Program-made: the position numbers and the translations under genes
Shown here: in pieces, positions 13,970-44,971 of the stretch
Layout: each line of letters opens with the position of its first letter
Position numbering within the stretch: position 1 is the first letter of the stretch
NCBI RefSeq assembly: GCF_001672295.1
Contig: NZ_JXMS01000013.1
Span: 1-64,000, forward strand
Origin: Halodesulfovibrio spirochaetisodalis
GTDB lineage: Bacteria; Desulfobacterota; Desulfovibrionia; Desulfovibrionales; Desulfovibrionaceae
Length of the DNA stretch: 64,000 nucleotides
Direction of reading: 5' to 3'
The notes under the pieces: generated by a model
Database searches by the model: none
The model's input: only the letters and a program-made list of their open reading frames with translations
Told to the model about the DNA's origin: nothing

Positions 13970-15073
13970 CTAGAGCACATCCTCTGGTGAGACAGAGAAC
14001 ATTTCAAAAGCTTCGCCCACAGCAGGACAGGTGAGTTTTCCTTTGTACGTATTCAGACCAAGCGCAAGAGCACGGTCTTCGCGCAACGCATCTAATCCCT
14101 TGTTTGCCAGCTGAATTGCATACGGCAATGTCTGGTTGCTCAGCGCAAAGGTAGAGGTACGAGGAACGGCACCCGGCATATTGGTAACTCCATAATGCAC
14201 TACCCCGTGGAGGTTAAAAACAGGCTCATCATGTGTTGTCGGCTTGATTGTTTCGCAGCAACCGCCCTGATCTATGGCTACATCAACGACAACAGCACCC
14301 TCCTGCATCGTTTTAATCATGTCTTCCGTAACAAGGCTCGGAGCCTTGGCGCCCGGAATAAGCACTGCGCCCACCACGAGATCAGACTTGGCAACCCACT
14401 CACGAATATTCGGTTCAGTGGAAGTAATAGTACGGATACGATTGCCGAACACATCATCAAGATACTGCAGGCGCTGGTGGCTGACATCAAGAATAGTAAC
14501 GTCCGCTCCAAGGCCGATAGCCATCTTGGCTGCATTGGTTCCAACAACACCACCACCGACAACAGTCACACGGCCGGGTGCAACTCCCGGAGTACCACCC
14601 AGAAGCACGCCTCGTCCGCCATTTGCCTTTTTCAAAAAGTTTGCGCCTTCCTGCGTTGCCATGCGTCCAGCCACTTCAGACATAGGCATCAGCAACGGCA
14701 GGCAGCCGTTAGGGAGCTGAACAGTTTCATATGCAATGGCGGTGGTTCCTCCCTCAAGCAGGGCATCTGTCAGATCGCGCTCCGCAGCAAGGTGCAGATA
14801 GGTGAAAAGCAGCAATCCTTCACGAAGATACTGGTACTCTGATGCAACAGGCTCTTTTACTTTAATAACCATATCCGCGCCCCATGCCTCTTCAGCAGTA
14901 ACCATGGTAGCGCCGGCTGCAATGTACTCTTCATCCATCAAGCCGCTACCGCGACCGGCTTCTGTTTCTACAAGTACAGAGTGTCCTTGCCGAATCAAAG
15001 TTGCCGCACCGCCCGGAGTAAGAGCGACCCGATTTTCCAGTGTTTTTATTTCCTTAGGTACACCGATAATCAT
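13970..15073 (-). CDS. ald: Alanine dehydrogenase
   Basis: A 367-residue NAD-dependent enzyme interconverting L-alanine with pyruvate and ammonia. It opens [20 protein letters not shown], keeps Lys and His in VKVKEP and FTYLHLA, has the Rossmann glycines [20 protein letters not shown] near 170-190, and ends with [15 protein letters not shown]. Length matches the family. An upstream in-frame ATG at 15154 is less likely because AGGAGG sits just before the ATG at 15073. It probably serves growth on or salvage of alanine, near an amino-acid importer. Confidence 0.95.
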
Positions 15074-15286
15074 GACTTCCTCCTTGCAACAGTCAAGAAC
15101 ACAGCCAATATAGTCTGCATCCCTAATTGTGAACATTGAAACTGTGATATACATTCACGCTTGTAACGTGCGTCATTTGGGTTACCTTTCCCTGTACAAT
15201 CACCACAAATTTGCTACAAGAAAAAAACAAGATTTACGCAGAAAACACCCAAAATTTACTGTGTTATGCGAAAAAACATACACTTA

Positions 15287-15300
15287 TTGCAAATTTGCAA
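15287..15300. promoter_or_regulatory. Perfect 14-bp palindrome TTGCAAATTTGCAA
   Basis: It lies in the 534-bp gap 15074-15607 between divergent ald and the M48 protease gene, 214 bp upstream of ald. It is shaped like an operator for a dimeric regulator. The rest of the gap is AT-rich with no supported gene. Confidence 0.35.
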
Positions 15301-15607
15301 CACAAATATGTTTTTTCATGTATGCTCTGGTGCTCACCTTACAGATGTACTTCCTCAACGCACCATAAACAGGCAGCTCTCGCCTGTTCAAAAAAATGCA
15401 TAATCCATCAACCATGTTGCATAGTTGCGACTACTGCTTATATATGAAAAATTGCTAACCTCAGTTGAAAAAACACACAGCGCATATCTCTTTTTTAAAC
15501 GAAAACGCACCGCGGCTGTTTACTACACAGCCTGCTGCCAATAATACCAGCACACCACATATACAGTATTCCGCAAGCAATGCTCGTTATCCCGATAAGG
15601 AACCATT

Positions 15608-23953: not shown

Positions 23954-26950
23954 ATGGCACTTTCTGATTTCTGTCACCGAATTACAGCTGAAAACAAATT
24001 CAGGGTATATCATGATCTTATGCGCGAGAAGGTAAAGCACATCCTTCTTGTGTCCTCACCATATGATGCATGGGTAATGGAAGAAGATTGCAACCTTTCA
24101 GAACGCCTTGCAAACGAATACCGCGGTCTTAACCTCAGTTCACCGCCTCGCCTTACATGGATTTCTTCACCTGAAGAGATTCCGGCCGCTCTGGAACAGC
24201 GTCCCGCTGAAATGGTTATCCTTATGTCTGGACTTGCCGAACCGGAACTGGTTGACCTGAAACAGCGCATTGACGCCTTTGTGCCGGATCTGCCCGTTGT
24301 CATACTGACTCACAGGGAAATAGAAAACGAGCAGCTCAAGCGAAAGGATTTAGATCATTGCTTCTTATGGACAGGGGATGCCGAACTCCTGCTGGCTATC
24401 GTCAAATTGACTGAAGATAAGATGAATGTTGCCCATGATGCCATGGAAGCCGGAATCCGCAGTATTATTCTGGTGGAAGATTCCCCGAGCTATATCTCGT
24501 CATTTCTCCCTATTCTCTACCGCGCGTTAGTACAGCAGGCACAGGCAGTTATTCAAGAAGGGCTCAATCAGGAGCACCGGCTGCTGGTGATGCGCGCCCG
24601 TCCCAAAATTCTTGTGGCAGAAACGTATGAAGAAGCCATGGAATATTTCCGCCAGTATGAACAATACGTACTCGGTGTCATTTCAGATGTACGCTACCCG
24701 CGCAACGGTCAGGTAGACCCGTCTGCGGGTGTTACGCTGCTTTCCCAGATCAAAAAAGAACGAAAAGACATTCCGCTTCTGCTCGCAAGCAGTGAATCAG
24801 TAAATAAATGGTTTGCGGAAGAAATCCCGTGTGAATTCATCGATAAAAACTCTCCGCTGCTTCTGGCGGAACTGCACCGCTTTGTGAGTGAACATCTAGG
24901 ATTCGGTGATTTTATCTTCCGTAACAAAGACGGAATGGAAATAGACCGTGCACACACCATGTTTCAGCTCAAACAAAAGCTGAACGAAGTACCTGACGAT
25001 GTTTTTCTTGCCCATTGTCTGAATAATGATTTCTCGCGCTGGTTCTTTGCCCGTACAGAAACAGAACTTGCCTGCATCATGCGTCCCCTGACTGCTGAAG
25101 ATTTTGAAAACAGCGTGGATGCTATGCGTGCCTTTGTTATTGAACAGATTCATAACAGGCTGCAGCAACGCCAACGGGGCATTGTCGTGAGCTTCAAAGA
25201 AAATGATTTTGATCCGCAGACAGACTTCTTAAAAATAGGCGAAGGCTCTATCGGCGGCAAAGCGCGCAGTCTGGCCTTTATGTTCCGCCTTATAGGGCAA
25301 AGTAATTGGCTGAAAGAAAAATACCCCCACATCGACATTGTACCTCCGAAAGTTCTCAGTATTGCTACAGAAGGTTTTGACAGCTTCCTTCGCCTGAATG
25401 ACTTAGGGTATCTTGCCGATGATGATTTTGAAGACGCAGAGGTTGTAGAAATATGCCTTAAGGCAAAACTACCGGACTGGCTCAGACACAAGCTGAGAAT
25501 CTTTCTGGAAAAAGTACACACACCTCTTGCTGTCCGTTCATCAAGCCTGCTTGAAGATGCTCAATATCAGGCATATGCCGGATTGTACTCAACCGTCATG
25601 CTCACCAATACGCATCCAGATATTGAATTCCGGTACAGGGAACTGGCGACGGCTGTTAAAAAAGTCTACGCGTCCACGTTCTTCCAGTCCCCGAAATCAT
25701 TCTCCCGCAGAGTTAAGCTGCGCACGGATGAAGAAAAAATGGGCGTAATTATTCAGGAAGTTATCGGAAGACGTTACGATGACTACTTTTACCCTGCGAT
25801 ATCAGGTGTTGCCCAGTCAAAGAACTTTTATCCGTTCGGCAGAATGAAAACAGATGACGGCATTGCATCCATTGCTATGGGGCTCGGCAAAACCGTCATG
25901 GACGGCGGACAGGTATTCCGCTTCTGCCCTAAATGTCCGCATGTACAACCTCAGGCTGCAAACATGCAGGAACTGCTCAAGAACTCGCAAAGCACCTTCT
26001 ACAGCCTTTACATGGGCGATCCAGTACTTGCGCCTAAAGCTAAGGAACAAGAGGGCGCACTTGTTCAACGCCGGATATACAATGCCGAACCGGACGGCCC
26101 TATTTCCTATCTTGCAAGCAGCTATCTCCCGCAGGAAGGAATCATTCGTGAAACTGCCTCAATTCCAGGAAGCTCCAAAGTTCTTCTCTTTGCACAAGTT
26201 GTTAAGCACGGCCTATTCCCGCTCCCTTCATTGCTGAATGATATCCTCACAATGGCAGAAGAAGCCATGGGTGGCCCTGTAGAACTGGAATTTTGTGTAA
26301 ACATGGATATGGACGGTTCCAACGCGGAATTTGCCTTGCTCCAACTGCGCCCTATGAGTTCACTTTCCGGTCTGGCAACCGTGAACATTACTGAACAAGA
26401 ACGGGCAGAAGCCTTTTGTCACTCCAAACATGCATTGGGAAATTCCGAAAATCAGGACATATACGACATTATCTTTATCCATCCTGATGACTTTGATGTG
26501 GCAAAAACAATGGAAATTAAACAGGAGATAATGGACAGCAACAGGCAGATGCTTCAGGAAAACCGCAAATACATTCTCATAGGCCCCGGTCGATGGGGGA
26601 CATCTGACCGCTGGCTCGGCGTTCCTGTCACATGGAATGAAATATCCAGTGTATCTGCCATTGTGGAAACCTTTACCGAAAACCTGCGTGTGGAACCTTC
26701 ACAAGGTTCACACTTCTTCCACTGCATCACCACACTGGGCATCAACTACGTTATGGTTACCAACTCCAGTGAAGAATTCATACAATGGGACTGGCTGGCA
26801 TCAGTGCCTGTACACGCAAAAGGACAGTTCATTACACACGTACAGTTTGAATCACCAATCACTGTCAAAGTGGACGGTCGAACAGCAGATTGCGTTTTGT
26901 TAAAGCCTTCAGGCTCTAAGCCGGAGCAATCAAACAAAAGTGCAACATAA
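23954..26950 (+). CDS. Receiver-like/PEP-synthase ATP-grasp fusion protein
   Basis: A 998-residue protein. The first ~330 residues look like two receiver-type domains: one from KHILLVSSPYDAWVMEEDC, and one from SIILVEDSPSYISSF with VISDVRYPR as the phospho-acceptor-type Asp segment. Residues about 420-830 match the ATP-grasp (PPDK_N) half of phosphoenolpyruvate synthase: GEGSIGGKARSLAFM, LAVRSSSLLEDAQYQAYAGLY and ELEFCVNM...LLQLRPMSSL. The phospho-His swivel and the C-terminal PEP/pyruvate barrel of true PEP synthase are missing; instead the end carries GPGRWGTSDRWLG. It cannot be an ordinary PEP synthase. Function unknown; regulation of a phosphotransfer is inference. Confidence 0.8.
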   Translation: MALSDFCHRITAENKFRVYHDLMREKVKHILLVSSPYDAWVMEEDCNLSERLANEYRGLNLSSPPRLTWISSPEEIPAALEQRPAEMVILMSGLAEPELVDLKQRIDAFVPDLPVVILTHREIENEQLKRKDLDHCFLWTGDAELLLAIVKLTEDKMNVAHDAMEAGIRSIILVEDSPSYISSFLPILYRALVQQAQAVIQEGLNQEHRLLVMRARPKILVAETYEEAMEYFRQYEQYVLGVISDVRYPRNGQVDPSAGVTLLSQIKKERKDIPLLLASSESVNKWFAEEIPCEFIDKNSPLLLAELHRFVSEHLGFGDFIFRNKDGMEIDRAHTMFQLKQKLNEVPDDVFLAHCLNNDFSRWFFARTETELACIMRPLTAEDFENSVDAMRAFVIEQIHNRLQQRQRGIVVSFKENDFDPQTDFLKIGEGSIGGKARSLAFMFRLIGQSNWLKEKYPHIDIVPPKVLSIATEGFDSFLRLNDLGYLADDDFEDAEVVEICLKAKLPDWLRHKLRIFLEKVHTPLAVRSSSLLEDAQYQAYAGLYSTVMLTNTHPDIEFRYRELATAVKKVYASTFFQSPKSFSRRVKLRTDEEKMGVIIQEVIGRRYDDYFYPAISGVAQSKNFYPFGRMKTDDGIASIAMGLGKTVMDGGQVFRFCPKCPHVQPQAANMQELLKNSQSTFYSLYMGDPVLAPKAKEQEGALVQRRIYNAEPDGPISYLASSYLPQEGIIRETASIPGSSKVLLFAQVVKHGLFPLPSLLNDILTMAEEAMGGPVELEFCVNMDMDGSNAEFALLQLRPMSSLSGLATVNITEQERAEAFCHSKHALGNSENQDIYDIIFIHPDDFDVAKTMEIKQEIMDSNRQMLQENRKYILIGPGRWGTSDRWLGVPVTWNEISSVSAIVETFTENLRVEPSQGSHFFHCITTLGINYVMVTNSSEEFIQWDWLASVPVHAKGQFITHVQFESPITVKVDGRTADCVLLKPSGSKPEQSNKSAT

Positions 26951-27056
26951 TTTTCTGTTAGCAGCACCCCGCCCAACTCCTTCGGGTTGCACTAGCGCAA
27001 CATAACGTATAATAATATTGCCCTAAAATACCTACGTTTCCCTCTTTTTTCAGGCC

Positions 27057-27098
27057 ACATTCTAATGACGTTGCATTTTAGCAACGCCATTAGAATGT
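27057..27098. repeat. Long inverted repeat upstream of a sigma54-type promoter
   Basis: Eighteen-base arms with one mismatch around a 6-nt loop; the inner part reads TTGCATTTTAGCAA. No T-run follows. Its place 116-157 bp upstream of the promoter at 27214 fits an enhancer-binding-protein site, but a plain hairpin is equally possible. Confidence 0.55.
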
Positions 27099-27213
27099 AC
27101 ATCAACCCCAAGATGCACAAATGCAACCCGTGCGAGTAAACACCATTATAATCGATATTTCCCAACATGCTGAAATCGCGGGTTTTATAAAAAAAGCATA
27201 AACTTTTTTAAAC

Positions 27214-27230
27214 TTGGCATCCCTGTTGCT
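27214..27230 (+). promoter_or_regulatory. Sigma54-type (-24/-12) promoter
   Basis: TTGGCAT-CCCTG-TTGCT, with GG and GC separated by exactly 10 bp, matches the sigma54 consensus TTGGCAC-N5-TTGCT at all but one base. It points to transcription starting near 27241, in a region with no ORF for nearly 300 bp. Confidence 0.75.
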
Positions 27231-27240
27231 ATATTAGAAT

Positions 27241-27470
27241 TAGCTTTTCATAAAAGCACATGTGGTATCCTCTAACACAGTGAAATTGTGAGTAACTGCC
27301 AACACTCTTTTCACCTTCGGTACCAGTTTACCTAACTTCCTTTTTCTATCTGACAGCCCCGTTGTGATTGCGCTTTAATAACGGGGAGAAGTCAGATAGC
27401 CTGAATGTTCCACGAATATTTCCTCGAAGGGCTCTGTAATCATCATGATTACAGAGCCCTTCTTGGTTTC
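27241..27470 (+). ncRNA. Candidate sigma54-dependent structured RNA (or long leader of the YqaA gene)
   Basis: The predicted transcript begins with a stem GCTTTT/AAAAGC (27243-27257). It continues with a nested hairpin (CTATCTGAC 27346-27354 with 27391-27399, inner CCCCGTT 27357-27363 with 27380-27386) and ends in a hairpin with 18-bp arms (27426-27462). No ORF with a ribosome site is inside. The last hairpin has a poor U-tract, so readthrough into the YqaA-type gene at 27525 is possible. I do not recognise it as a known RNA family. Confidence 0.5.
27426..27462 (+). terminator. Strong hairpin, terminator-like
   Basis: Perfect 18-base arms (GAAGGGCTCTGTAATCAT and complement) around one base, followed by TTGGTTTC rather than a clean T-run. 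Confidence 0.6.
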
Positions 27471-27524: not shown

Positions 27525-27971
27525 ATGACAGAGTTTTTTTCCCCAGAGACAGGATATCCCGCGCTTTTTTTTCTCAGCTTTTTAGCTGCCACAGTGCTTC
27601 CACTTGGTTCCGAGTGGCTACTTATTGCTATGGTTGCAGGCTCTTTTGAACCAACAACCTCTGTTATTGTCGCCACAGCAGGAAATACTCTGGGTGCCTG
27701 TACAACATATGCCATCGGCATATGGGGAGGTGCTTACCTTATCAACCGCATCCTGCGCATTGATGAAAAATCCCAACAGAAAGCGCAATCCTTCTATAGC
27801 AAGTGGGGACAGTGGTCTCTGCTTCTTTCATGGGTTCCAATAATAGGTGATCCGCTGTGTCTTGTCGGCGGTATTGCCCGAATGCGTTTTTCCCTGTTCC
27901 TTCTACTTGTTCTTACAGGCAAGTTTGTCCGCTACGCAGCACTGGCATGGCTGACAATGCAAGCGACATAA
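27525..27971 (+). CDS. YqaA/DedA-like (VTT domain) membrane protein
   Basis: A 148-residue inner-membrane protein with about four helices. GNTLGACTTYAIG near residue 50 and SWVPIIGDPLCLVGGIARM near 105 are the hallmarks of the short YqaA branch of the VTT/SNARE-associated family, which is linked to lipid scrambling or transport across membranes. It lies 63 bp after the strong hairpin that ends the preceding structured region. No clear ribosome site precedes the ATG, so the start is not certain. Confidence 0.83.
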   Translation: MTEFFSPETGYPALFFLSFLAATVLPLGSEWLLIAMVAGSFEPTTSVIVATAGNTLGACTTYAIGIWGGAYLINRILRIDEKSQQKAQSFYSKWGQWSLLLSWVPIIGDPLCLVGGIARMRFSLFLLLVLTGKFVRYAALAWLTMQAT

Positions 27972-29355: not shown

Positions 29356-29404
29356 CGCACAACATCCCTTCTGCTAGTCCATCCAGCCCGCAGGCTCGAC
29401 GCAC

Positions 29405-29500
29405 TTTTATCCGGTAGATAGACGGATAAAAACAGCACACAGCTATGCACACAACTCCGGAACGCCCCCGCCTGACAGCTCATTCAGGCTGGGGCGTTCC
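29405..29500 (+). terminator. Two hairpins after the second universal stress gene
   Basis: First an inverted repeat TTTTATCCG (29405-29413 with 29423-29431), then a long GC-rich stem (29459-29500; GGAACGCCCC with its complement). Neither has a full T-run, but the second is strong. The 661-bp gap 29356-30016 otherwise holds the cydAB control region. Confidence 0.6.
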
Positions 29501-29879
29501 TATTGTGACTTGCCCTATAGGGTCTTTTTACCTATTAGTATTATAAGGAAAAAAGTTTTATCATGGTCTTCGGTTTTACTCACTTCACATTCCAGCAACA
29601 TGCACAGGTAGTGAATACAAAGAACTTTTGTAACGCAATAAACACCCGATAAGAGTTACGACAGGGCAAGGTAGAGTTACATAGTCTAGCCTGATGCTAG
29701 CCAGTACCTTTCCTCAGCCGCCTCTGTCGGATATAAATTTCAGAGCTTTTATGTCACGAGGCAAAAATAAACGTATCTTATTTTTTTTGTTATCTAATTT
29801 AAAAAGAACATGCTAAAAAGAAGGAGTAAGGAGCCTTTTTTATTGGGGGAAAAACAAATTTGTGGTTGCAAAAAAAGTT

Positions 29880-29903
29880 TTTTTAGTATTGATTACCATT
29901 ACT
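29880..29903. promoter_or_regulatory. Shared element / imperfect palindrome upstream of cydAB
   Basis: Contains the 22-bp element seen at 28742, and inside it AGTATTGATTACCATTACT (29885-29903), whose two halves match at 7 of 9 paired positions. It lies 137 bp upstream of cydA. The palindrome is somewhat Fur-family-like in layout; the regulator is unknown. Confidence 0.5.
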
Positions 29904-30016
29904 GAGTGAGTGGCAGGACAGTCGTGTGTGTCCTGTTAAAAATATTCAATAATTTTTTTGAAACCTTGGCGTCCGCTGCCTGCTCTGACAGGACGTAAGC
30001 CGAAGGGGGTTAATGT

Positions 30017-35903: not shown

Positions 35904-35979
35904 GGGTCGTTAACTCAGTTGGTAGAGTATCTGCCTTTTAAGCAGAGAGTCACTGGTTCGAGCCCAGTACGACCCACCA
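35904..35979 (+). tRNA. tRNA-Lys (anticodon TTT), copy 1
   Basis: A complete 76-nt cloverleaf: acceptor GGGTCGT/ACGACCC, anticodon stem TCTGC/GCAGA with loop CTTTTAA, T-loop TTCGAGC, and encoded CCA end. It reads AAA/AAG codons. Its sequence is identical to copies 2 and 3. Confidence 0.97.
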
Positions 35980-35989
35980 CTGAATTTAC

Positions 35990-36020
35990 AGACCGGAATT
36001 TCGGTTCCGGTCTAATTTAT
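35990..36020 (+). terminator. Terminator of first tRNA-Lys
   Basis: AGACCGGAA/TTCCGGTCT stem followed by a T-rich stretch. Confidence 0.8.
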
Positions 36021-36072
36021 TCACCACCGTTTGAGTAAGGTAACGCAATGTTAATTTTTCCTAGAAAATTAT

Positions 36073-36099
36073 TTGACATGAGGATGCGAAGCCTATAAA
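36073..36099 (+). promoter_or_regulatory. Promoter of second tRNA-Lys
   Basis: TTGACA and TATAAA separated by 15 bp, 16 bp before the tRNA. Confidence 0.75.
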
Positions 36100-36115
36100 A
36101 AACTTTTCCTCAAGA

Positions 36116-36191
36116 GGGTCGTTAACTCAGTTGGTAGAGTATCTGCCTTTTAAGCAGAGAGTCACTGGTTCGAGCCCAGTACGACCCACCA
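36116..36191 (+). tRNA. tRNA-Lys (anticodon TTT), copy 2
   Basis: Same 76-nt sequence as copy 1, with encoded CCA. It has its own promoter and terminator, so it is a separate transcription unit. Confidence 0.97.
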
Positions 36192-36201
36192 CTGGATACA
36201 T

Positions 36202-36235
36202 AAGCCGTATTTGCGAAAGCGAATACGGCTTTTTT
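36202..36235 (+). terminator. Terminator of second tRNA-Lys
   Basis: AAGCCGTATT stem capped by a GAAA tetraloop and followed by six T. Confidence 0.88.
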
Positions 36236-36292
36236 GGGTGCTGAAGGTGTGCATTAGAGCTCTTGAGAAAACATACTTTTTTCGAAAAATGT

Positions 36293-36319
36293 TTGACAAG
36301 ATGACTCGGAATCTATAAA
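36293..36319 (+). promoter_or_regulatory. Promoter of third tRNA-Lys
   Basis: TTGACA and TATAAA separated by 15 bp, 14 bp before the tRNA. Confidence 0.75.
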
Positions 36320-36333
36320 TCACATCTCCGAAC

Positions 36334-36409
36334 GGGTCGTTAACTCAGTTGGTAGAGTATCTGCCTTTTAAGCAGAGAGTCACTGGTTCGAGCCCAGTAC
36401 GACCCACCA
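36334..36409 (+). tRNA. tRNA-Lys (anticodon TTT), copy 3
   Basis: Same 76-nt sequence as copies 1 and 2, with encoded CCA. The downstream 45 bp nearly repeat those after copy 2, which points to recent tandem duplication. Confidence 0.97.
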
Positions 36410-41025: not shown

Positions 41026-42381
41026 CTACTCAAATCCATACCGTTTTAGCTTATTATGCAGAGTTGCGCGGGTAATTCCTAATTTTCTTGCAGTCTTACT
41101 CTTATTGTATTCACATTCTTCCAACGTTGCCAAAATGGCCTTACGCTCAAGTTCATCAAGAGACATCCCTGTTAATGCAGTAGCTTGCGCAGGCTGAATT
41201 GGTGCTTCATTGTCTTTTGAAGATAAGGACAACGGCAATTCACGGGTAGAGATATATTCTCCCATTGTCATTATGACAGCACGTTCAATAACATTTTCCA
41301 GTTCACGGACGTTCCCCGGCCATGCATAGCGGATAAGTGTATCCATCGCCTGAGGAGCAAGTCCTTTAATGTGCTTGCGGTTTTTGTTTGAATATTTTTT
41401 CATAAAATATTCAGCCAGCAAGGGAATATCACTCTGGCGCTCACGAAGAGCTGGCACACGAAGGGCTATAACATTCAAGCGGTAATACAGATCTTCTCTG
41501 AAATTACCCTGTTCTACCTCTTCGGGTAAATCTCTGTTTGTAGCTGCAATGACTCGAACATCCACGTTTTCAACAGTGTCACTGCCGACACGCTGAACCT
41601 CACCCTGTTGCAGGGCACGGAGTAATTTAGGCTGCAACGAAACCGGAATTTCCCCAACTTCATCAAGAAAAAGGGTTCCTCCGTCAGCCTGTACAAAGCG
41701 ACCTTCACGGCGCCTGTCTGCTCCAGTAAATGCTCCACGCTCGTGTCCGAACAACTCAGATTCAAGCAAGTTTTCACTTAATGCTGCACAGTTTATTGCC
41801 ACAAAGGTTTCACCAGCGCGGCTACTGGCGTTATGAATAGCATTTGCCACCAGCTCCTTACCTGTTCCCGACTCACCAGTGATAAGTACAGACGCATCAG
41901 AAGGAGCAACGGTTGCAATGATCTGGCGAAGTTCTTTGATAACTTCGCTGTTCCCGACCATTCCCATAGTATCCGGCTCCAGAATACTCCGTAATTCTTT
42001 ATTCTCAGTCACAAGGCGGGTGTGATCCAGCATGCGCTCAAGCGTCAGTTTGAGCACATCAAAATCCAGCGGTTTAGTAAGATAGTCATATGCACCGATT
42101 TTAAGCGCCTTAACCGCAGTATCAACGGATGAAAACGCCGTCATAATCAGTACAGGTATGGAGGGATTATACTCTTTAATACGCTCAAGAGCGGTTATGC
42201 CGTCCATTTTTACCATTCTGATATCCATCAGAATGGAGTCATATGACTGTTCCTGTACCATTGCCACAGCTACATCACCATCATCAGCTTCAGCCACATC
42301 GTAGCCCCAGCCTTTGATAATGGTCTTAAGCATGGAGCGATGCGCCAGATCATCATCAACTATCAATATTTGTGCATTCAT
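41026..42381 (-). CDS. zraR: Sigma54-dependent response regulator (ZraR/NtrC-like)
   Basis: A 451-residue enhancer-binding protein. The receiver domain (residues 1-120) holds the phospho-acceptor Asp in ILMDIRM near 53. The AAA+ domain has Walker A GESGTGKE near 172, the sigma54-contacting GAFTGA near 220 and Walker B GGTLFLDEVGEIP. The end is a Fis-type helix-turn-helix (NKSKTARKLGITRATLHNKL). The start overlaps the kinase stop by one base (TAATG). Its likely target is the divergent zraP-like gene, whose promoter has a sigma54 signature. The symbol reflects context and similarity of layout. Confidence 0.9.
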   Translation of the reverse strand: MNAQILIVDDDLAHRSMLKTIIKGWGYDVAEADDGDVAVAMVQEQSYDSILMDIRMVKMDGITALERIKEYNPSIPVLIMTAFSSVDTAVKALKIGAYDYLTKPLDFDVLKLTLERMLDHTRLVTENKELRSILEPDTMGMVGNSEVIKELRQIIATVAPSDASVLITGESGTGKELVANAIHNASSRAGETFVAINCAALSENLLESELFGHERGAFTGADRRREGRFVQADGGTLFLDEVGEIPVSLQPKLLRALQQGEVQRVGSDTVENVDVRVIAATNRDLPEEVEQGNFREDLYYRLNVIALRVPALRERQSDIPLLAEYFMKKYSNKNRKHIKGLAPQAMDTLIRYAWPGNVRELENVIERAVIMTMGEYISTRELPLSLSSKDNEAPIQPAQATALTGMSLDELERKAILATLEECEYNKSKTARKLGITRATLHNKLKRYGFE

Positions 42382-44198
42382 TAGGCGTTTTCTCCCACCG
42401 GTGACACTGGAATTTCAATAACAAACTGAGCACCGACACCTTCTTTGGAGTGGACACGAATAGTGCCGCCATGTGCTTCCACTATTTTCAGGACAATGGA
42501 CAACCCAAGTCCGGTGCCCTGACTTTTGGTTGTGTAGTACGGCTCAAAAATACGAGCGACATCTTCTTTGCTGATACCTTTACCAGTATCGGCAATGGCA
42601 AGCGTTACCTTTTCATCTGTATGTGACAGGTTCATAGACAGCTTACCGCCATCCGGCATCGCTTCAAGACTGTTCAGGCAAATATTCAGTACAGCCTGAG
42701 AAAGCCTGTCAGGGTCAACAAAGAGTTGCGGAATAGTTTCATCAGCCTGTAAATCCAACTCAATATTATGCGATGCAGCGTCCTGTTTTATCAACCCGAA
42801 ACAATGGGCAATCAGCGCATTCATATCTGTTTCGCTACGGCGCAGATCTGATGGTCTGGAAAGATTTATGAGGTCGGTAATTACACGGTTTAACCGTTCC
42901 ACTTCATGCACCATAATATTGGCTGCTTCTCTGTCTTCAGAGCCTTCATCAAAACGACTGCCGAAATACGTTGCATACCCTTTAATGGAGCTTAACGGAT
43001 TACGGATTTCATGCGCTACACCCGCTGCAAGAGAGCCTACGGCTGCAAGTTTTTCTTTTCGCCGAACCTCGGCCTCAAGCCTGCGCACCTCACGCAAATC
43101 GCGCAGCATGTAGACATATCCAATAGAAGTACCATCATCCAGCGTCACTGCTGAACCACTCACGCCTACCGGAATAGCTTCACCCTGCTCCCCAAGGCAT
43201 TCTACTTCCACTTCGGAAAGGGCTTCGTCCCCTGTCAATTCAACAAGACGCGCCACACATTCCGGTAAAACTTCCGAAGGCATGCTGCCGACCACCTTGC
43301 TGTCTTTAATATTCAACTGCTCAAGGGCGATATCATTCAGCAGTGCAATACGGCCTTCATCATCCGTCACAAGCAAGCCGTCCGGTAAGTTGTACATAAC
43401 CTCATTGGCTAATGCCTCTGAACTTTGTAAACGCCTGCGGGACTGACGAGCTTTTTGTGCCCACGATAGGGCAAGGAAGCCCGCAAGACCGATGAGCAGA
43501 ATAAATACCGCATTTACCAGCGCGTGTTCTCTGTTCACCGTCTGGGCAGTAGCAAAGGTCTTTTCGTCCAGACCGATATAAATAACAGGTGCAGGGCCAT
43601 CCTGCGGGAAGAGCTTACGACGGAACATATGCTCTTCTTTTGTGCATCCGATATCTCCCCTGCGCATATTCCGCATCATTCTGTGCATACCATGCATCAT
43701 TCTTTGAGAAGAGGTACCGTCCCCGCGTTTAAACGGCGTAAAATCTCTATATACAACAAAAGCTTTATGCTCTCCCTGCTCCATAATCCGCCATGATGTA
43801 CTCTTGCCGGGCTTCAACTCTGCCAGCTGCTGCGGGGTAAATGCACGTGTTCCAACAACAGCAGGATCGCTGTGGGCAATAATCATCCCGTTGGCATCTG
43901 TTGCCATAAGAAACAATATGCCGGACTGGCTGGACATTTCCTCAAGCATTGTCTGGAGCCTGAGCGCCCGTATGTTATGTCTTAGATCAGTGCGTGTACC
44001 GGCTTCCAGAGCTGTAATGATAGACGCACCTTTCTCTTCATAAAACGTCTCTAATTGACGATTTTCCTGATTAATACCCCGAATGGTCATAAGCGTAATG
44101 GCCAGTCCAAGGATAATAATGCCCCCGATAAGCACCCACAATGAGGTAGCAAATTGGGATCGCACTACTTTTTTCTTACGAAGAATGGTCTCTTTCAT
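42381..44198 (-). CDS. zraS: Sensor histidine kinase (ZraS-like)
   Basis: A 605-residue membrane kinase. Helices at about residues 18-38 and 225-245 bracket a periplasmic sensor region of about 185 residues. This region contains a Met/Arg-rich part (RMMHGMHRMMRNMRR) followed by a Cys, which may touch metal. A PAS domain follows (about 275-385). The phospho-His lies in GVAHEIRNPLSSIKGY near 395, and ATPase motifs NICLNSLEAMPDG, ADTGKGISKED and GTGLGLSIV complete it. It partners the regulator overlapped at its stop. Metal sensing is inferred from the ZraP neighbour. Confidence 0.9.
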   Translation of the reverse strand: MKETILRKKKVVRSQFATSLWVLIGGIIILGLAITLMTIRGINQENRQLETFYEEKGASIITALEAGTRTDLRHNIRALRLQTMLEEMSSQSGILFLMATDANGMIIAHSDPAVVGTRAFTPQQLAELKPGKSTSWRIMEQGEHKAFVVYRDFTPFKRGDGTSSQRMMHGMHRMMRNMRRGDIGCTKEEHMFRRKLFPQDGPAPVIYIGLDEKTFATAQTVNREHALVNAVFILLIGLAGFLALSWAQKARQSRRRLQSSEALANEVMYNLPDGLLVTDDEGRIALLNDIALEQLNIKDSKVVGSMPSEVLPECVARLVELTGDEALSEVEVECLGEQGEAIPVGVSGSAVTLDDGTSIGYVYMLRDLREVRRLEAEVRRKEKLAAVGSLAAGVAHEIRNPLSSIKGYATYFGSRFDEGSEDREAANIMVHEVERLNRVITDLINLSRPSDLRRSETDMNALIAHCFGLIKQDAASHNIELDLQADETIPQLFVDPDRLSQAVLNICLNSLEAMPDGGKLSMNLSHTDEKVTLAIADTGKGISKEDVARIFEPYYTTKSQGTGLGLSIVLKIVEAHGGTIRVHSKEGVGAQFVIEIPVSPVGENA

Positions 44199-44286
44199 AA
44201 CAACCCTGTGTATTCTTTTTTTTCAGTGTAAAAAAAATGAACAACCAGCACAAAGCTTTCTGTCTATATTTTTTACACCTCTATTA

Positions 44287-44301
44287 TTGCATACGTTGCA
44301 A
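44287..44301. promoter_or_regulatory. Candidate enhancer site for the ZraR-like regulator
   Basis: TTGCA-N5-TGCAA inverted repeat, 63-77 bp upstream of the sigma54-type promoter, a typical position for an enhancer-binding-protein site. Binding is inferred. Confidence 0.45.
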
Positions 44302-44363
44302 CAAAATTAATAATGCACCGTAACCTACTGTTTTATCGAAGTTAACACTTATCATCTGTAAGT

Positions 44364-44380
44364 TTGGCACACGCGTTGCT
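44364..44380 (+). promoter_or_regulatory. Sigma54 promoter of the zraP-like gene
   Basis: TTGGCAC-ACGCG-TTGCT is a full match to the sigma54 consensus with the required 10 bp between GG and GC. It lies 58 bp before the ATG, and the divergent operon encodes a sigma54 activator. Confidence 0.88.
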
Positions 44381-44437
44381 GTATACTAGCTAGCAAAACA
44401 CGAACCATTACTTGATTTTTATACATAGGAGTTCCTT

Positions 44438-44971
44438 ATGCGATTTAAAGCATTAAAAATGTTTCTGGCAGTAGCATGTCTCATGACAGTAGCAACCACA
44501 GCTGCGTTGGCGGCTGGCCCAACATGGACAGATCTTTCCGAAGCACAGCAGCAGAAATACATGACTCTGCATGATGGCTTCATCAAGAAAACAACTCCGC
44601 TTCGCGACGCAATGTGGGCGAAACGAGTAGAACTTGAAGCCGTCATGAACAATGAAAATGTAGACGTAGAAAAAGTAAAAAATATCGTAACTGAAATTAA
44701 TAAACTGCGTGCTGAAATGCGCACCGAGCGCGAAGCATTCGCAGCTACAGTAAAAAAAGAAGTAGGTATTGAGCCACTTGCTAATCCACATCGCGGCAAC
44801 AAAATGATGGGCGACTGCCCAATGGGCATGAAACGTGGTCACGGTGGTCACGGCATGCACCGCGGTATGGGTGGAAAAGGCATGGGGCACGGTATGATGA
44901 AAGGCTGCGACAACATGATGCAGAACTCTGCACCAGCAGCACCGGCTCAGCCTGAAACACCAGCTAAATAG
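44438..44971 (+). CDS. zraP: Periplasmic metal-binding/chaperone protein (ZraP/CpxP/Spy-like)
   Basis: A 177-residue exported protein. The signal peptide covers residues 1-26 (ends AALAAG). The mature part is helical (KNIVTEINKLRAEMRTEREAF; LTxxQ-like repeats are degenerate) as in ZraP, with the Trp segment WTDLSEAQQQKY. The last ~55 residues are rich in Gly, His and Met (GHGGHGMHRGMGG) and suited to bind metals. An AGGAG site precedes the ATG. ZraP in E. coli is zinc-induced and feeds back on its kinase; the same here is inference. Confidence 0.88.
   Translation: MRFKALKMFLAVACLMTVATTAALAAGPTWTDLSEAQQQKYMTLHDGFIKKTTPLRDAMWAKRVELEAVMNNENVDVEKVKNIVTEINKLRAEMRTEREAFAATVKKEVGIEPLANPHRGNKMMGDCPMGMKRGHGGHGMHRGMGGKGMGHGMMKGCDNMMQNSAPAAPAQPETPAK

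Follow-up and report, generated by a model that had tools for sequence, protein, structure and literature searches.

Within the order to which this bacterium belongs, sigma54-dependent non-coding RNAs have been described for D. vulgaris. Its sigma54 regulome includes four ncRNAs (the targets of DVU0653, DVU0679/Dv_sRNA2, DVU1419 and DVU2359), two of which are located downstream of the gene of their own activator (available text of PMC4641369), and the function of Dv_sRNA2 is stated to be unknown (available texts of PMC4641369 and PMC3333781). An earlier note on this DNA had called such small RNAs rare, but with four of them in D. vulgaris they are less exceptional in this order than it supposed. 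In Vibrio, the Qrr RNAs are transcribed in a sigma54-dependent way under control of upstream TTGCA...TGCAA dyads, the LuxO site being TTGCAWWWTGCAA (available text of PMC10162802). GlmY and GlmZ, which are connected with QseF/GlrR, are likewise structured sigma54-dependent RNAs with a possible overlapping sigma70 promoter (available text of PMC3844500).

The RNA that we describe here resembles those of D. vulgaris in that it comes from the same order, is assigned to a sigma54 regulon and is non-coding, but its candidate activator is encoded on another contig, in the cluster for sulfopropanediol breakdown (DHPS; hps genes). Compared to the LuxO site the dyad found here, TTGC-N6-GCAA, is one base longer; it also differs from the dyad of the activator QseF. 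Unlike Qrr and GlmY/GlmZ, the RNA has no Rfam match. The Qrr RNAs are about half as long and use Hfq, whereas Hfq (PF17209) was recovered in none of the 10 genomes of the genus by a search that did detect it in E. coli and four more of 14 control genomes. Judged by titles and abstract starts among the matches listed, the literature on Halodesulfovibrio small RNA and on Desulfovibrio sRNA, Hfq and sigma54 contains no such RNA, and that on DHPS gene regulation in sulfate reducers yielded nothing; the available text of a computational ncRNA survey of O. alaskensis G20 (PMC11124144) has 0 mentions of sigma54, sigma 54 or RpoN. A link between an RNA and sulfonate metabolism is apparently unreported.

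The window, i.e. the whole stretch of 64,000 nucleotides that was analysed, is part of contig C5 of a 3.6-Mb genome (G000), the gene content of which points to a marine sulfate reducer of the Desulfovibrionaceae, perhaps Halodesulfovibrio, and the RNA element is found in a 574-bp intergenic region between a PPDK_N-domain gene and a YqaA-type gene (Table 1). Elsewhere in the window there is a 661-bp intergenic region (29356-30016), presumably bounded by a second UspA-like gene and a cydA-like gene. We consider it probable, though well short of certain, that the element is a sigma54-dependent RNA gene of ~225 nt, activated by the enhancer-binding protein P0002 together with the hps genes in response to DHPS, and that its product acts in trans without Hfq. 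This reading rests on sequence, because it is at that level that the promoter, the dyads, their conservation, the covariation, the independence of yqaA, the shared motif and the co-occurrence with P0002 have been established; the binding of the dyads by P0002, the role of DHPS as the signal, the production of a transcript and its pairing with messages are inferred.

Table 1. Positions of the features in the window, and of the hps cluster elsewhere in the genome
Feature	Position	Strand	Remarks
PPDK_N-domain, phosphoenolpyruvate-synthase-like gene	23954-26950		5' flank of the intergenic region
Candidate activator dyad 3 (about -228), GTTGCACTAGCGCAAC	26986-27001		at -228/-229 in 5/5 genomes; degenerate in G009, G002, G008 and G005
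Long inverted repeat around dyad 2	27057-27098		opposite-strand self match, 81%
Candidate activator dyad 2 (-144), GTTGCATTTTAGCAAC	27070-27085		degenerate in G008 and G005
Candidate activator dyad 1 (-102), GATGCACAAATGCAAC	27112-27127		5/5 genomes, as GATGC-N5-TGCAAC at -101/-102
sigma54 -24/-12 promoter, TTGGCATCCCTGTTGCT	27214-27230	+	extended -10-like TGCTATATT overlaps its end
Small RNA gene, predicted ends, about 225-230 nt	27241-27469	+	conservation and fold
Pyrimidine-rich stretch, ACCAGUUUACCUAACUUCCUUUUUCUAU, highly conserved, mostly unpaired	27322-27349	+	alignment, fold; candidate target-contact site
Nested stem, outer CUAUCUGAC/GUCAGAUAG, inner CCCCGUUGU/AUAACGGGG	27346-27399	+	fold, covariation
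Short conserved stem, GAAUGUUC/GAAUAUUU	27403-27421	+	fold
Terminator-type stem, 17 pairs, 3-nt loop, then weak U tract UUGGUUU	27426-27462	+	5 compensatory pairs
YqaA-type gene, VTT-domain	27525-27971		3' flank of the intergenic region
hps cluster	L192 1-16001 (G000:C45:76000-92000)		two different sigma54 activators, TauE/SafE exporter

A BLASTN search recovered the element in 5 of 39 genomes, all within the genus (G000, G009, G002, G008 and G005), and a covariance model recovered the same five among 198 relatives and nothing outside the genus, with the proviso that distant weak copies may have escaped the model because stricter filters were used. The element thus occurs in half of the 10 genomes of the genus, always between the same two flanking genes, and the mean column identity over the transcript is 94% in the five-genome alignment; 80 loci of YqaA relatives from named genomes were left out of the comparison. 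An origin as a repeat element was rejected, the element being present in a single copy in G000 apart from self matches of the palindrome.

The earlier note had read the region as a sigma54-driven small RNA, and this reading is supported in that the promoter, the enhancer dyads and the structure are kept together at one site in five genomes. Its -24/-12 element at 27214 was recovered as TTGGCATCCCTGTTGCT, with letters that are invariant in the five genomes (consensus TTGGCAYCnCnGTTGCTATA, in which the -24 GG and the -12 GC, 10 bp apart, never change), and the position of this element predicts a transcription start at about 27241. The looser pattern TGGCAYN5TTGCW has two matches in the window versus 0.31 expected, and at least two were obtained in 4 of 100 shuffles. 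The long inverted repeat upstream of the promoter, which had been proposed as the place where an activator would act, is real and its core (GTTGCATTTTAGCAAC) is one of three activator-type dyads; its outer arms were not seen in the other four element-bearing genomes. As an observation in its own right, the window holds, at 41026-44971, genes for a sigma54-type response regulator and a sensor kinase (minus strand) that face a Metal_resist-domain gene (44438-44971), which is preceded by the sigma54 element TGGCACACGCGTTGCT at 44365-44380; we take this to be an ordinary zraSR-zraP locus.

The three dyads have the form GTTGC-N6-GCAAC and are positioned at about -102, -144 and -228; at the most proximal one, 9 of the 10 half-site letters match in all five genomes. 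Every element-bearing genome has, at this locus, one dyad with a sigma54 element at 70-100 bp; the five other genomes lack this combination, and G000 shows it at one further, unrelated place. The exact pattern GTTGCN6GCAAC alone is not diagnostic, since G000 has 5 copies of it (2 at this locus and 1 in the hps region) and the reversed control pattern is commoner, with 8 occurrences. Judged from sequence and position, the dyads are candidate binding sites of an enhancer-binding protein. In the interval between dyads and promoter a consensus-like IHF site was found in only 3 of the 5 genomes and was set aside (an IHF paper, PMC3897727, treats the D. vulgaris orp operons in its available text).

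In three genomes, exact dyads elsewhere drew attention to an intergenic region between divergent genes that lies ~4 kb upstream of the gene for an activator. This region measures 1.45 kb in G000, where it separates a TRAP transporter operon (DctP, then a fused DctQM, by Pfam) from the gene of a glycyl-radical enzyme, which the NCBIfam model NF048011 identifies as (2S)-3-sulfopropanediol dehydratase (1565-1580 bits in the five genomes, cut-off 1000). Six genomes pass this model in all, the HpsG of G004 at 1557 bits, and in G000 the activase, the gene of which lies past the TRAP genes, is recognised by the hpsH model (465, cut-off 430). Both hps operons have clear sigma54 elements in the five genomes (TGGCATCACCTTTGCT and TGGCAYnGGTATTGCT). 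The substrate, DHPS, is an abundant organosulfonate, the breakdown of which gives sulfite for sulfide formation.

With a dyad matrix built from the 15 small-RNA sites alone, 8, 8, 8, 7 and 7 sites were found in the hps intergenic regions of the five genomes (eight in G000); shuffled sequences averaged 0.6-1.0 sites, and in 300 shuffles these counts were never attained. The best hps site per genome scores 18.9-21.4 bits, whereas the 14 other activator loci that were scanned in G000 (64,314 bp) contain 25 weaker sites, the best of 11.6 bits. The distances count against our preferred reading: in G000 the dctP promoter is separated from the nearest hps dyads by 274-385 bp and the hpsG promoter by 302-369 bp, which exceeds the 102-228 bp of the small-RNA dyads. 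In the window outside the element there are 16 matrix sites of at least 7 bits, two of which reach at least 14, both upstream of the alanine dehydrogenase gene (TIGR00518; ORF 13970-15154, minus strand). These two dyads (15286-15301, 16.6 bits; 15416-15431, 14.4 bits) are 130 bp apart, and no good sigma54 element was found upstream of this gene, the best site scoring 8 of 13 as compared to 11 for the RNA promoter. The gene could be another member of the regulon or carry a similar motif of a different activator; given strong sites that lack a good sigma54 partner, more than one activator may use the motif.

The hps cluster encodes two candidate activators, namely P0002 (PAS-AAA+-Fis-type HTH, 464 aa), the gene of which adjoins the activase gene, and P0001 (GAF-PAS-AAA+-Fis, 686 aa). 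All five genomes with the element encode P0002 at 97-100% identity, and none of the five others does so at that level; G005 has both hpsG and P0002. P0001 is present in four of the five; at E 1e-150 it has no match in G005, which has the element, or in G004, which lacks it. G004 does encode a 54% relative of P0002, 1.2 kb past its hpsG gene, and the 530 bp upstream of that hpsG contain 4 matrix sites, a number attained in none of 300 shuffles, and the sigma54-like TTGGCACAAACCGTGCT, which the strict promoter pattern missed. On the distribution of the two proteins, and on the hpsG-linked relative and sites in G004, P0002 ranks first among the candidates for dyad binding. Element and P0002 may nevertheless co-occur through one evolutionary event, as the five genomes are close relatives.

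The strongest competing explanation, to which we give a limited but real chance, retains a sigma54-dependent small RNA and assigns it to a different enhancer-binding protein that shares the half-site (P0001, L173, L175, L179 or one outside the survey), so that the signal would not be DHPS. P0001 is encoded in the same cluster and accompanies four of the five elements, and V. fischeri qrr1 is known to have two activators acting on overlapping sites (available text of PMC10162802). Moreover, among the 30 activators of G000 that were compared, L173, L175 and L179 also have a counterpart in G005 and none in G001, a genome without the element, and they stay candidates because of this shared profile (the G005 counterpart of L179 is also matched by L178, at 70%). 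The comparison covered 30 of the 32 PF00158 matches of G000 (the two weakest left out), 26 of 29 in G001 (three weak ones left out) and 30 of 34 in G005 (without the four weakest, among them two activators of full score). Against P0001 speaks that no match was found at E 1e-150 in G005, nor in G004, where dyads still adjoin hpsG, and against the other three that their 4.6-kb loci contain no matrix site above 11.6 bits.

Much less probable is that the RNA is real but sigma70-driven from the extended -10 (TGCTATAWT), with a sigma54 match that is fortuitous or belongs to a shared promoter such as those of glmY/glmZ. A scan for sigma70-type promoters does yield TTTAAA-17-TATATT with a TG, overlapping the sigma54 promoter, G002 has TGCTATAAT, and overlapping sigma70 and sigma54 promoters are described for both glmY and glmZ (available text of PMC3844500). 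However, it is the -24 GG and the -12 GC that are invariant in the five genomes, with dyads at fixed distances, and the -10-like part that varies (TATATT, TATAAT, TATATA).

The alternative offered in the earlier note, in which the region serves the YqaA-type gene as a long regulatory leader, is about as improbable; the hairpin would then be an attenuator. The element lies directly upstream of yqaA in all five genomes and its weak U tract might allow read-through, but a leader should stay with its gene, and G001 retains both flanking genes, 71 bp apart and with a YqaA that is 82% identical, without the element: its 71-bp interval contains no such promoter, RNA or dyads. What G001 has kept is a short block directly before yqaA, TTGACG...TTTTTGAAAnAGTGCC. 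As G001 has the flanking genes and no element, the latter is much more probably a free-standing gene than a yqaA leader, and it was gained or lost as a unit. By sequence, the predicted RNA of 27241-27469 is independent and non-coding; the stem of its putative terminator covaries, but the weakness of the U tract behind it counts against a terminator.

Structure adds to this assignment. The fold of 27241-27470 has an energy of -78.5 kcal/mol, as compared to a shuffle mean of -47.4 (sd 4.4; z -7.07), and none of 200 shuffles was as low; in relatives, a conserved structure was seen by both covariance search and alignment. In the four helices of the 3' part, 98% of the cells pair and 6 pairs show changes on both sides, a number that none of 500 shuffles reached and that also lies above all slid controls. 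G000 and G005 account for three of these changes each; five affect the terminator-type stem and one the nested stem, which has 97.8% and 95.6% of its cells paired, 1 compensatory pair and 4 pairs changed on one side. The short stem at 27403-27421 is beyond the reach of this test because its bases never vary. The 5' stem has 0 pairs with both-sided changes (500 of 500 shuffles were as high in the five-genome alignment), the 5' part being without covarying pairs because its bases hardly vary. Of the three hairpins claimed in the earlier note, the nested and the terminator-type stems are therefore the ones that covary, the latter with 17 pairs on folding instead of 18, and the 5' stem is a predicted one. 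Overall, the covariation supports a structured RNA. The strong structure and the covarying terminator stem would fit an RNA that stands alone.

A covariance search of the window against Rfam found no family at gathering score on the RNA and reported three tRNAs only; five sub-threshold matches were microRNA hairpins on the terminator. The tRNAs are tandem tRNA-Lys (TTT) genes at 35904-36409, about 215 bp apart, with equal model scores.

That the stretch would encode a small protein is very improbable: a 15-codon GTG frame is retained in four of the five genomes, and all five have an ATG start at transcript position 167/168, but the frames that follow this ATG differ in length (34, 11, 11, 11 and 30 codons in G000, G009, G002, G008 and G005), single-base indels separate the genomes, no Shine-Dalgarno sequence was seen before the small ORFs of the stretch, the longest plus-strand ORF starting inside it has 34 codons, and no frame has both its start and its length kept in the five genomes, all of which agrees with the earlier judgement that no credible ORF is present.

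The reading that we prefer, i.e. a small RNA activated by P0002 along with the hps genes, can be phrased as a sequence of steps. An enhancer-binding protein on the three GTTGC-N6-GCAAC dyads would open the sigma54 promoter; this protein is most likely P0002, which is encoded in the hps cluster, the divergent promoter region of which carries the same dyads. The sigma54 RNA polymerase would then transcribe the RNA up to an end at the 17-bp hairpin, so that the RNA would be made alongside the hps genes once the activator is switched on, presumably by DHPS or its product. The RNA may act in trans, by base pairing of its conserved pyrimidine-rich single strand and without Hfq; the core of this strand (ACCUAACUUCCUUUUUCUAU) is the most conserved unpaired part of the RNA and could cover purine-rich ribosome sites. 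More tentatively, and with somewhat less than even confidence, we propose that one DHPS-sensing activator turns on the catabolic operons and an Hfq-independent RNA, by which further genes of catabolism or respiration are silenced or retuned.

Duplex energies of four segments of the RNA versus 114 gene starts of G000 yielded no firm target. For the 3' segment, the first rank goes to the start region of a gene in the hps cluster, that of the Na+/solute symporter, with -24.6 kcal/mol (mean -17.2, sd 3.1). This candidate was rejected: the pairing is the same in G000, G002 and G008 and different in G009, and a cluster gene that we take to be of the DAO type scores equally on average; no symporter start was found in the G005 stretch examined, though G005 has the RNA. 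A wobble-aware complement of the pyrimidine-rich stretch has 15 matches in the five genomes, 5 of which are the RNA gene itself. Eight of the remaining 10 lie inside or antisense to an ORF of at least 80 codons and two (in G005 and G009) are intergenic; none of the 10 is located within 60 bases upstream of a start in the sense direction.

If the proposed reading is true, the RNA would constitute a post-transcriptional arm of sulfonate use, by which the cell may retune other genes when DHPS arrives. The locus leads to a concrete hypothesis, in terms of an activator, a binding motif, target promoters and a small RNA, and it offers a way into the action of small RNAs in bacteria in which Hfq was not found. 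In addition, it would be a predicted case of a LuxO-like dyad that controls a small RNA outside Vibrio.
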